This document shows positions 20,426-53,766 of a DNA stretch of 64,000 nt, in pieces. Under the pieces are notes generated by a model. It had not been told where the DNA came from, made no database searches, and worked only from the letters and a program-made list of their open reading frames with translations. The translations under genes were made by a program, and so were the position numbers. The DNA is from Gaiellaceae bacterium (GTDB lineage Bacteria > Actinomycetota > Thermoleophilia > Gaiellales > Gaiellaceae): positions 496,001 through 560,000 of the forward strand of contig BPGK01000001.1 in NCBI GenBank assembly GCA_026002995.1, read 5' to 3'. Each line of letters begins with the position of its first letter. Positions within the stretch are counted from its first letter, which is position 1.

Positions 20426-20455
20426 CCGCCGGCCACCCTGTGGAAAAGTGGAAAA

Positions 20456-20468
20456 GGTGTCAGACACC
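20456..20468. repeat. GGTGTCAGACACC palindrome at the 5' end of the mobA-like gene
   Basis: Exact 13-nt inverted repeat with 1-nt centre. Confidence 0.9.
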
Positions 20469-21824
20469 GTCTCGGAGAAGGCCGCGGTCAGCGGGATCTT
20501 GCTCGTTGGGGGCAGGTCCGAAAGATTCGGGTCGGCGAAGGCCCTCGCGTCCTTCCGCGGGGAGACCCTTGCCGAGCGCGCGTGGCGCCTTCTCCACGCC
20601 GTCTGCGACGAGGTGCTCGCGGTCGGCAAGGCTGCGGACGCGCTGCCGCTGCCCTTCCCGGTGCTCGACGACGGCTCACCCGAGCGCGCTCCCGTCTTCG
20701 GGCTCGTCGCCGGACTGCGGGCGGCGACGCACGACACGTGCCTCGCCGTCCCGGTTGACTGCCCGCTCCTGACGACAGAGGCGCTCCGGGAGCTCGCACG
20801 AGCCGTCGCCGTTCCCGGGATAGGGCCGCTTCCCGGCGCATACACGAAGGCGATGCTCCCCGTGCTGGAGGAACGGATCGCCGCCAGAGAGCTCTCGCTT
20901 CGAGGCGTCAACGAGACCGTGGTCGAGCTCGACGAAGCGACTCTCACGAACGTCAACACGCGCGCCGAGCTCTTGGCCGCGGCCGCCGCCGACTGGGCGT
21001 CCGAGCACGAGGACGTCCGCGCGGTCATCGTCGTCGGCTCGCAGGCGCGCCGCGACACGCCAGCCGATCGCTGGTCGGATCTCGACCTCGTCCTCCTCCT
21101 CGACGACCCGCAGCCCTACCTCGACGATGCGTCGTGGGTGCGGGAGCTCGGCAGGCCCGTCCTGACCTTCCTGGAGAGCGCGCCCGACGGGCACGTCGAA
21201 CGACGCGTCCTCTACGAGGAGGGGGACGACGTGGACTTCGTCCTCTTCCCGGTCTCCGCCCTCGAGCGGCTGGAGACGAGCGAGAGCGCGACGGCGCTCG
21301 TCCGGCGCGGCTACCGCGTCCTGCTCGACCGGATCGGCCTCGCCGAGCGCTTAGAGCGGATCGCGCGGACGCGGCCCCCGAGCGCCCTCCCCACCGGCGA
21401 CGACCTCCGCGAGCTCGCGAGCGACTTCTGGTACCACGCGCTCTGGACGGCGAAGAAGCTGCGGCGGGGCGAGGTGTTCTCGGCCAAGGAGTGCCTCGAC
21501 TGCTACCTCAAGGCGCGGCTTGTCACCCTGCTCCGTTGGCACGCGCAGGCGCTCGACCCGTCCGTCGACACCTGGCACGGCGGCCGCTTCCTCGAACGCT
21601 GGGGGGATCCAGGGGCGCTCGCCGGCCTCGAGCGCGCCTACGCCCGCTACGACCTGCACGACGTCGTCCGCGCGCTCTGGGAGACGATCGATCTCTGGCA
21701 GGGGCTCGAGGAGGAGACCGCTCGCCGACTCGGAGTGGAGACGGGCCTCGACCACACAGAGTTGCGGCGCCGCATCTCCGCGGTCGCGCTCGATCCGCGC
21801 CGAGGCTCTACGCTTCGGGCGTGA
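20457..21824 (+). CDS. Fusion: MobA-like NTP transferase + ANT(6)-like nucleotidyltransferase (start uncertain, GTG 20448 or 20457)
   Basis: SGILLVGGRSERFGSAKAL..VPVDCPLLT..NVNTRAEL (MobA-like), then VIVVGSQARRDTPADRWSDLDLVLLLDD..FWYHALWTAKKLRRGEVFSAKECLDCYLKARLVTLL (ANT(6)-like). Confidence 0.8.
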   Translation: MSDTVSEKAAVSGILLVGGRSERFGSAKALASFRGETLAERAWRLLHAVCDEVLAVGKAADALPLPFPVLDDGSPERAPVFGLVAGLRAATHDTCLAVPVDCPLLTTEALRELARAVAVPGIGPLPGAYTKAMLPVLEERIAARELSLRGVNETVVELDEATLTNVNTRAELLAAAAADWASEHEDVRAVIVVGSQARRDTPADRWSDLDLVLLLDDPQPYLDDASWVRELGRPVLTFLESAPDGHVERRVLYEEGDDVDFVLFPVSALERLETSESATALVRRGYRVLLDRIGLAERLERIARTRPPSALPTGDDLRELASDFWYHALWTAKKLRRGEVFSAKECLDCYLKARLVTLLRWHAQALDPSVDTWHGGRFLERWGDPGALAGLERAYARYDLHDVVRALWETIDLWQGLEEETARRLGVETGLDHTELRRRISAVALDPRRGSTLRA

Positions 21825-24244: not shown

Positions 24245-25040
24245 GGCCTGCATTCTGCTCGACGTCGACGGCGTCCTCCACGTGTCCGGCGAGCCGATCC
24301 CGGGCTCCGTCGAGGCCGTCGCCGAGCTCCGGGCCAGCGGGCACTCGCTCCGCTTCGTCACGAACAACTCGACCCGTCCTCGCGCGCGCCTCGCCGAGGA
24401 GCTCCGCGCGATGGGGTTTGCGCTCGACGACGCCGAGCTCCAGACGACTCCCGGCGCCGCCGCGCGCGAGCTCGCGGGCAAGCGGGTGCTCGCGCTCGTC
24501 ATGGAGGCGATCGTGCCCGACCTCGAGGGGCTCGAGCTCGTGGGTCACGACGTGGACGCGGTGCTCATCGGGGGCTGCGACGAGACGCTCGAGCCGAACC
24601 AGGTGTTCAGCTACATGAACATGGCGCGCGCGTTCAGCGAGATTCGGATGGGGGCGAGCCTGTACTGCCTGCACAAGAACACGTGGTGGCAGACGAGCCG
24701 CGGCCCGATGCTCGACTCGGGCGCGTACGTGGCCGGGCTCGAGTACGCGACCGGTGTGGAGGCGATCGTGCTCGGCAAGCCGAGCCCGTCGTACTTCGCC
24801 GCCGCGCTCGACGCGCTCGAGGCCGAGCCGGAGCTCACCTGGATGGTCACGGACGACGTCGAGGCGGACGTGCGCGGCGCCCGTCTCTTCGGGATGCGGA
24901 CGGCGCTCGTCCGGACCGGCAAGTTCCGCCCAGAGACGCTCGAGCGAGCCGACCCGGCTCCCGATATCGTCGTCTCCTCGCTCGGGCAGTTCCCGTCGCT
25001 GCTCGAGGAGGCGCTGAGCGAGGGGTTCGGGGCGCCGTGA
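24243..25040 (+). CDS. HAD-superfamily IIA hydrolase (NagD-like)
   Basis: ILLDVDGVLHVSGEPIPGSVEAV, FVTNNSTRPRARLAEEL, VLGKPSPSYFAAAL, WMVTDDVEADVRGA. Confidence 0.88.
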   Translation: MACILLDVDGVLHVSGEPIPGSVEAVAELRASGHSLRFVTNNSTRPRARLAEELRAMGFALDDAELQTTPGAAARELAGKRVLALVMEAIVPDLEGLELVGHDVDAVLIGGCDETLEPNQVFSYMNMARAFSEIRMGASLYCLHKNTWWQTSRGPMLDSGAYVAGLEYATGVEAIVLGKPSPSYFAAALDALEAEPELTWMVTDDVEADVRGARLFGMRTALVRTGKFRPETLERADPAPDIVVSSLGQFPSLLEEALSEGFGAP

Positions 25041-25411
25041 GAGTCGGCGTCGACATCATCGAGATCGAGCGCGTGCGGAGGGCGCTCGAGCGGCCCGGCT
25101 TCCGCGACCGTTGTTTCACGCCTGCTGAGCAGGCCTACTGCGACTCCCGCGCGAAGCCCGAGGAGAGCTACGCGGCCCGCTTCGCCGGCAAGGAGGCGGT
25201 CGGTAAGGCGCTCGGCTGCGGCGTGCGCTTCACGTGGAAAGAGGTCGAGATCGTCGGCCGCCCGAAGCCTGGGGTGCGCCTCTCCGGTCGAACGGCCGCC
25301 TTCGCCGAGCGCGTCCAGGCGGGGGCGATCGACCTCTCGATGACGCACTCGCGCGAGCTCGCCGCGGCGATCGCCGTCGTCGCCCCGCGCGATTTCGGCG
25401 CACTTTCTTAA
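25037..25411 (+). CDS. acpS: Holo-[acyl-carrier-protein] synthase
   Basis: VGVDIIEIERVRRALERPGFRDRCFTPAEQAYC, RFAGKEAVGKALG; TAA stop lies in the TTAAC preceding a palindromic repeat. Confidence 0.93.
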   Translation: MRVGVDIIEIERVRRALERPGFRDRCFTPAEQAYCDSRAKPEESYAARFAGKEAVGKALGCGVRFTWKEVEIVGRPKPGVRLSGRTAAFAERVQAGAIDLSMTHSRELAAAIAVVAPRDFGALS

Positions 25412-25415
25412 CACA

Positions 25416-25517
25416 CGGTGTCAGACACCGCTCGCACCGATGCCCCGCACGACGACTTCGAACCCGCTCCTCGAGTCAGATTCCGCGGAGCGCACGTAAC
25501 ACAAGGTGTCAGACACC
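25416..25517. repeat. Doublet of GGTGTCAGACACC palindromes (25417-25429, 25505-25517), direct orientation, 88 bp apart
   Basis: cttaacacaCGGTGTCAGACACCG and gtaacacaaGGTGTCAGACACCG read directly. Confidence 0.92.
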
Positions 25518-26966
25518 GGTCCTGAGAAGGGCACGCTCGAGCCGCTCTACACAGCGGCCGAGATGCGCGCCGCGGAGGAGCGCTACCCGCGCTACCCGGA
25601 CTCGATCCCGGAGCTCATGGAGAGAGCCGGAACCGCGGTCGCCGAGGAGACGCTCCGCTCCTACCCCGAGGCGCGGCGGCTCGCGTGCGTCTGCGGCAAG
25701 GGGTCGAACGGCGGCGACGGGCGCGTCGCCGCCCGCGTCCTGCGCGAGGCCGGGCGTGAGGCAGACGTGATCGAGCGAGACGCGGCGGCGACCGTCGACC
25801 TCGATCGCTACGACGTGCTTGTCGACGCACTCTTCGGCACCGGCTTCCGAGGAGCCCCGCGCCCGCCCGCCGCGGCGCTGATCGAGGCCATGAACGCGGC
25901 CTCCGCGCCGGTCGTCGCCGTCGACGTGCCGTCCGGCGTCGACGCGTCCACGGGTGAGGTCGCCGGCCCTGCGGTCGCCGCGGCGCTCACGGTCACCTTC
26001 CACGCTCCCAAGGTCGGCCTTGTCGTCGAGCCCGGCCGCACGCACGCGGGGCGCGTCGTCGTCGCCGACATCGGGCTCGAAGGGGTGCCGACCGCGTGCG
26101 CGCGCGCCACTGAGGAGCTCGTGCGCCTCGTGGGCCGCCGCTCTGCGCACGACACGAAGTACAGCGCGGGCTCCGTGCTCGTCGTCGGCGGCCAGCCGGG
26201 GATGACGGGCGCCGCCGCCCTCGCGGCGATGGCCGCCCTTCGTGCCGACGCAGGCTACGTCCAGCTCGCCGTGCCCGCCGCCGCCCTGCCCGTCGTCGAG
26301 ACGCTCACGCTCGAGCCGGTGAAGCTCGGCTGGACGGACGCCGACGCAGTAGAGGTGATCACGAAGGCGGCGGCGAGGGCCTCGGCGCTCGCGATCGGGC
26401 CCGGGCTCGGTCGCGGCCCGGGACGGCAGGCGCTCGTCCGAGAGCTGCTCCGCCGGATCGAGCTGCCGGCAGTCGTCGACGCCGATGCGCTGTACGGCCT
26501 CGAGCCCGTGGAGCGACAGCACCCCACGGTGTTGACGCCGCACGCCGGCGAGCTCACGCGGCTCCTCGAGGCGGCGCCCGGTTGGGTGGATGCACATCGC
26601 CTCGAGGCGGCGCTGACCGCGGCCGCGCGCTTCGGGGCGATCGTGCTACTCAAGGGCCGCGACACGATCGTCGCCTCCCCTCCGGCCGAGCGGTCGGCGC
26701 CCTCGACTGCCCCGGAGACGATCGTCTGCGACTTCGGCCCTCCCTCGCTCGCGACCGCAGGAACCGGCGACGTCCTGACCGGGATCCTCAGCGCCTTCCT
26801 CACGCGCCTGGACGCTCCCCTTGCGGCCGCCGCCGCGGCCGTTGTGCACGGCCTCGCGGCGCGCGCCGCCCCGCACCAGGCCGGCCTTGTCGCCTCCGAC
26901 CTGCTCACCGCGATCCCCGCTGTGCTCGGAGGCGAGCGGCTCGGGCGCGCGGCTTCATCGCAATAG
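25506..26966 (+). CDS. nnrD: Bifunctional NAD(P)H-hydrate repair enzyme (epimerase + dehydratase)
   Basis: LYTAAEMRAAEERY, GKGSNGGDGRVAARVL, SGVDASTGEVAG, TVLTPHAGELTRLL, LLKGRDTIVASP, ATAGTGDVLTGILSAFL; GTG start inside the palindrome. Confidence 0.92.
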   Translation: MSDTGPEKGTLEPLYTAAEMRAAEERYPRYPDSIPELMERAGTAVAEETLRSYPEARRLACVCGKGSNGGDGRVAARVLREAGREADVIERDAAATVDLDRYDVLVDALFGTGFRGAPRPPAAALIEAMNAASAPVVAVDVPSGVDASTGEVAGPAVAAALTVTFHAPKVGLVVEPGRTHAGRVVVADIGLEGVPTACARATEELVRLVGRRSAHDTKYSAGSVLVVGGQPGMTGAAALAAMAALRADAGYVQLAVPAAALPVVETLTLEPVKLGWTDADAVEVITKAAARASALAIGPGLGRGPGRQALVRELLRRIELPAVVDADALYGLEPVERQHPTVLTPHAGELTRLLEAAPGWVDAHRLEAALTAAARFGAIVLLKGRDTIVASPPAERSAPSTAPETIVCDFGPPSLATAGTGDVLTGILSAFLTRLDAPLAAAAAAVVHGLAARAAPHQAGLVASDLLTAIPAVLGGERLGRAASSQ

Positions 26967-30474: not shown

Positions 30475-30565
30475 CGGTGTCAGACACCGCGAGCCGAACG
30501 GCCCAAAAATTGCAGCCGCTTTTCGTCTTTTGTGCCCTCGTCTTAACATCCGGTGTCAGACACCG
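30475..30565. repeat. Doublet of GGTGTCAGACACC palindromes (30476-30488, 30552-30564), 76 bp apart
   Basis: gcaaCGGTGTCAGACACCG and cttaacatcCGGTGTCAGACACCG. Confidence 0.92.
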
Positions 30566-53645: not shown

Positions 53646-53766
53646 CGGTGTCAGACACCGTGCCCCGACACCGTGCGCCGATCTTCGCCACAACGCGTGA
53701 CAGCGCAGGGACGCTGTTTCGATCTCGTATGCGTTCCTTAACGCAAGGTGTCAGACACCGGGTGTC
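53646..53766. repeat. Doublet of GGTGTCAGACACC palindromes (53647-53659, 53747-53759), 100 bp apart, plus extra half-sites
   Basis: cttaacaaCGGTGTCAGACACCGTGCCCCGACACCGTGC and cttaacgcaaGGTGTCAGACACCGGGTGTC. Confidence 0.92.

Follow-up and report, generated by a model that had tools for sequence, protein, structure and literature searches.

The closest described relatives of the palindromes analysed here are the GTAG/CGTC-tagged REPs and their RAYTs (PMC3733652; TnpAREP, PMC8266576), likewise short multi-copy palindromes that are mostly extragenic and linked to a Y1 tyrosine transposase. In contrast to these, no GTAG/CGTC superfamily tag was found at the 5' foot of the present palindrome, which is flanked by CTTAACnnnn or GTGGAAAA (CTTGACA replaces CTTAAC in the sister species G001), with CTGTGGA further out. 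REPs that supply stop codons to flanking genes have already been published, while start codons within REPs were treated as mostly doubtful and suspected to be misannotations (PMC3733652); the stops supplied in the present family are TAA and TGA. REPINs (PMC3116915) find a counterpart in the inverted pairs of G001 and a second sister species, G002, which lie 116-163 bp apart, and in a RAYT with copies of the palindrome on either side, whereas most doublets of the present genome are direct, both units carrying TTAAC on one and the same side, and are spaced 47-177 bp apart. Rickettsia palindromic elements (PMC10969869) also are mobile palindromic repeats that give codons to host proteins, but they span ~150 bp and lie inside reading frames, while in the present case the codons lie at gene boundaries and come from a palindrome of 13 bp plus a short flank. 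The acpS/nnrD junction described below is an extension of what REPs are known to do rather than a novel type of system.

The repeat family and its transposase

The palindrome GGTGTCNGACACC occurs in 33 exact copies in the 2.62-Mb genome, its reversed control in none, and the window, the whole 64,000-nucleotide stretch of Gaiellaceae DNA that was analysed (from an uncultured actinobacterium related to Gaiella), holds seven exact palindromes, six of which make up three doublets. Copies lie mostly between genes or at gene ends, with about three inside predicted genes (L018, L031 and L034), and fall into class A, in which CTTAACnnnn precedes the palindrome, and class B, in which CTGTGGAAAnnGTGGAAAA does so. 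Several are arranged as direct doublets. A Y1 transposase gene at 989992-990309 (Y1_Tnp PF01797, with an HYH motif) lies between palindromes at 989857 and 990499 (enclosed span 989857-990511). Its nearest NCBIfam model is the REP-associated tyrosine transposase NF047646, with scores of 64.9 bits here and 78.8 bits in G001, both below the curated cut-off of 80 bits; the RAYT is a divergent relative. Two more Y1 transposase genes, one immediately before the window (G000:C1:495621-495959) and one at 1287539-1287865, extend further at the C-terminus and have no nearby palindrome.

G001 and G002 contain 69 and 56 palindromes, respectively, together with palindrome-flanked RAYTs (two in G001) that are 58-66% identical and REPIN-like inverted palindrome pairs. 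More than 20 copies were found in only five of 397 sampled genomes of the phylum, a scattered distribution consistent with mobility of the repeat. The relatives that carry names in an alignment-based scan are Gaiellaceae/Thermoleophilia metagenome genomes, and searching the literature for this sequence returned unrelated papers only. A short palindrome in many, mostly intergenic copies, linked in this genome, G001 and G002 to a RAYT that it flanks, has the features of a REP, and on these sequence grounds the palindromes can be classified as REPs belonging to a REP/RAYT mobile system in a Gaiellaceae-related genus. The doublet between acpS and nnrD does not form the inverted pair that characterises a REPIN, as both of its units are direct.

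The acpS/nnrD junction

Coordinates of the relevant features are collected in Table 1. Direct reading of positions 25380-25620 revealed that acpS ends GCA CTT TCT TAA, with the TAA at 25409-25411 lying within TCTTAACACAC, immediately 5' of the first palindrome, GGTGTCAGACACC; the CTTAAC flank of this copy is common to other copies in the genome. AcpS of relatives stops soon after VVSPR, while here it continues as DFGALS to the TAA of the element, and both this tail and the TAA adjoin or derive from the REP element. The TAA of the first REP unit terminates the acpS frame. In most relatives the two genes overlap or are separated by just a few bases.

Table 1. Features of the acpS/nnrD junction and other repeats of the window (positions within the window).
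Feature	Position	Strand	Basis or remark
Single class-B repeat (TGTGGAAAAGTGGAAAA-palindrome), fdhD/mobA junction	20439-20468	+	GTG 20448 and GTG 20457 inside
acpS (holo-ACP synthase)	25037-25411	+	PF01648 (ACPS); C-termini of relatives; coding score
REP copy 1, TAACACACGGTGTCAGACACCGCTC; its TAA stops acpS; palindrome 25417-25429	25409-25433	+	92% direct repeat; 33 genome palindromes
Spacer between the two REP copies	25434-25496	.	88 bp start to start
REP copy 2, TAACACAAGGTGTCAGACACCGGTC; palindrome 25505-25517; TAA 25497-25499 closes and GTG 25506-25508 opens the nnrD frame	25497-25521	+	Sequence reading; 92% direct repeat
nnrD (bifunctional NAD(P)H-hydrate epimerase/dehydratase), proposed GTG start in palindrome	25506-26966	+	YjeF_N PF03853 and Carb_kinase PF01256; start comparison; coding frame
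ACG at -4 codons from LYTA, the usual start position in relatives	25533-25535	+	Orthologue comparison
Conserved internal ATG, rival nnrD start	25563-25565	+	Orthologue comparison
REP doublet 2 of the window, palindromes 30476-30488 and 30552-30564	30476-30564	+	
REP doublet 3 of the window, palindromes 53647-53659 and 53747-53759	53647-53759	+	

The two REP copies, 92% identical, form a direct repeat whose similarity runs beyond the palindrome, so that the acpS stop and the TAA that precedes the GTG of nnrD occupy the same positions of the element, in which TAA and GTG share one frame, nine bases apart. Start-to-start distances of other doublets in the genome are 76, 86, 100 and 76 bp. The nnrD frame is closed by the TAA of the second copy, and GTG 25506, contained in the second palindrome, is the sole ATG, GTG or TTG from there to LYTAAEM (L codon at 25545); the following start codon is ATG 25563. 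The sequence-only reading had placed the acpS stop inside the cTTAAC that precedes the first palindrome, as the reading frame bears out; its assignment of the in-frame TAA and of GTG 25506 as the only canonical start before LYTAAEM is correct to the base, and the peptide it read from that GTG, VSDTGPEKGTLEPLYTAAEMR, was found in the sequence. Starting at GTG 25418, in the first palindrome, a frame of 35 codons runs to TGA 25523-25525; it overlaps the nnrD GTG and could couple translation from acpS to nnrD.

The start of NnrD

In each of the 29 other family orthologues compared, a canonical nnrD start lies 4-10 codons ahead of LYTA, with exactly 4 the commonest distance, and none of the 29 carries a palindrome at the acpS/nnrD junction; L191, which is truncated by a contig end and represents the same gene as L054, was left out of the scoring. 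Further publicly named orthologues also lack a junction palindrome and start 2-10 codons before LYTA, L203 being the one at -2. The sole exception is the present genome, with ACG at -4 and the palindrome GTG at -13. The ancestral start position no longer has a canonical start codon, and ahead of the conserved N-terminus just one is left, the GTG in the second palindrome. The junction comparison proposed in the sequence-only reading, run on these 29 orthologues, thus singles out this genome as the only one with a palindrome and without a start near LYTA. Long junctions of unrelated sequence (108-175 nt) also occur in L052, L110, L119 and L124, where the native nnrD start is retained; that of L052 is hairpin-rich. 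NnrD also begins with VSD in other genera (L116, L118 and L120), but these N-termini were rejected as palindrome remnants, as the sequence there reads GTGAGCGAC.

NnrD initiation at GTG 25506 is likely, rather than proven. Its ribosome site is badly placed, with GGAG ~15 nt upstream, and the codon lies at the base of a 5-bp hairpin; many relatives likewise lack good Shine-Dalgarno sites. An unlikely alternative is that NnrD starts at ATG 25563, which is conserved in nearly all relatives, in which case the palindrome would lie in an untranslated leader and the VSDT N-terminus would never be made. The solved Thermotoga maritima TM0922 seems to begin similarly close before the LMERAG motif, presuming for its construct the usual 12-residue tag, which suggests that a shorter NnrD could fold. 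In addition, REPs at predicted N-termini are often untranslated (PMC3733652). However, every other orthologue keeps its start upstream of LYTA and conserves the intervening stretch, and the codons for LEPLYTAAEM are intact in this genome, which argues for a translation start upstream of ATG 25563; this ATG is preceded by no Shine-Dalgarno-like site (-1.8 kcal/mol).

Initiation at the ancestral position, on the non-canonical ACG 25533, would make the palindrome GTG irrelevant. The codon lies exactly at the usual -4, a single transition from ATG, with GAGAAGG just upstream, but the end of this motif, 1 nt ahead of the codon, is too near for a Shine-Dalgarno interaction, and ACG is a very weak start codon in bacteria; we regard this start as quite improbable. 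It is more improbable still that the doublet acts chiefly in regulation or termination and that its overlap with start and stop is incidental: the palindrome can form a small RNA hairpin and gives a terminator-like match on the minus strand, but the plus-strand hairpin has no T tract, and folding around GTG 25506 resembles that of shuffled sequence (z -0.09). Terminator, promoter and Rfam explanations yielded nothing on the coding strand, with no promoter-like site and no Rfam family match found at the doublet.

Returning to initiation at GTG 25506, a REP unit pair would have come to sit in a formerly tight acpS/nnrD junction, its absence in relatives pointing to an insertion, presumably by RAYT action. 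Ribosomes would begin NnrD at the palindrome GTG, giving a 13-residue leader, VSDTGPEKGTLEP, and the old start at -4 may have drifted to ACG after the palindrome start became available. A regulatory role is not required, and the likely effect would be looser translational coupling between acpS and nnrD. Taken as a whole, the account in which a REP pair occupies the junction, its first unit providing the acpS stop and its second the nnrD GTG, is in our judgement probable.

Palindrome codons at other gene boundaries

Other genes of the genus that appear to start at a palindrome GTG strengthen this reading of nnrD. Proline-racemase-family orthologues (PF05544, domain from residue 10) in G001, G002, G004 and G006 start GTG TCT GAC ACC within a palindrome. 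In G004 and G006 this GTG is the sole start between the upstream stop and the domain, while in G001 and G002 it is the nearest, each having a TTG further upstream. The palindrome spacings are 9, 10, 12 and 9 codons (21 in G000, where an ATG follows the in-frame palindrome 13 codons downstream), and all are in frame. The G003 gene begins ATG GTC TCT GAC ACC (MVSDTG), which looks like a decayed palindrome, and genes from species without palindromes use other starts. At the upstream junction of this gene, palindromes are present in five of 11 species of the genus, with a likely remnant in a sixth (L126, L132, L134, L137, L128 and L129), and may reflect either recurrent or ancestral insertion. The region upstream of the G006 palindrome was dropped as a candidate RAYT remnant, since 20 of 100 shuffles scored equally once the palindrome was left out.

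The MobA-like gene after fdhD (NTP_transf_3 PF12804; ends at 21824) has its nearest starts, GTG 20448 and GTG 20457, in the class-B repeat, while relatives start mobA 3-8 codons before the GILLVGG motif; GTG 20385, inside fdhD, is a possible alternative start. This repeat (TGTGGAAAAGTGGAAAA-palindrome) resembles DnaA-box-like TTTTCCAC motifs on the other strand. Further candidates are a DUF1028 gene and a metallophosphoesterase gene of G002, while a DegT gene of G007 is ambiguous, with an ATG at -7. The palindrome thus seems to have been adopted as a start by the proline-racemase family and mobA, and probably by the DUF1028 and metallophosphoesterase genes. Among genes continuous with a palindrome and without a later start, the GTG frame was used 8 times against 2 and 1 (P=0.009). 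One gene enters this count with four orthologues, and a doubtful antisense case, L030, is also part of it; counted once per locus, the ratio is 5:2:1 (P=0.09). Since orthologues are not independent, this global test is no more than suggestive and the case rests on the individual loci. That the repeat forms part of two gene boundaries, as the sequence-only reading had suggested, is supported by the reading frame for the stop and, for the start, by the orthologue comparison together with these genes.

In its T-centred orientation, GGTGTCTGACACC, the palindrome reads GGT GTC TGA, a stop, in one frame and GTG TCT GAC ACC, a start, in the next, so that a single copy could close one gene and open another. 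The stop frame is used by RAYT and other genes. Five of seven palindrome-flanked RAYT genes, those of G000, G001 (two), G002 and the distant G196, end in GV at the palindrome's own TGA, while those of G220 and G323 do not end there. Across four genomes, RAYT loci with this ending lie at L029:1249-1251, L238, L244, L240 and L246. A single palindrome in G001 appears both to end a RAYT and to start the proline-racemase gene, in overlapping frames. Rather tentatively, the REP family might be viewed as a portable gene-boundary cassette, repeatedly adopted by its hosts, whose start is kept while the rest decays.

REPs are usually called extragenic, and here a 13-bp mobile palindrome supplies gene boundaries, probably changing the N-terminus of NnrD and loosening a conserved gene junction. 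The locus offers a way to test whether N-termini encoded by REPs exist or result from misannotation; for gene callers, proteins that begin VSDT in such genomes may be genuine.
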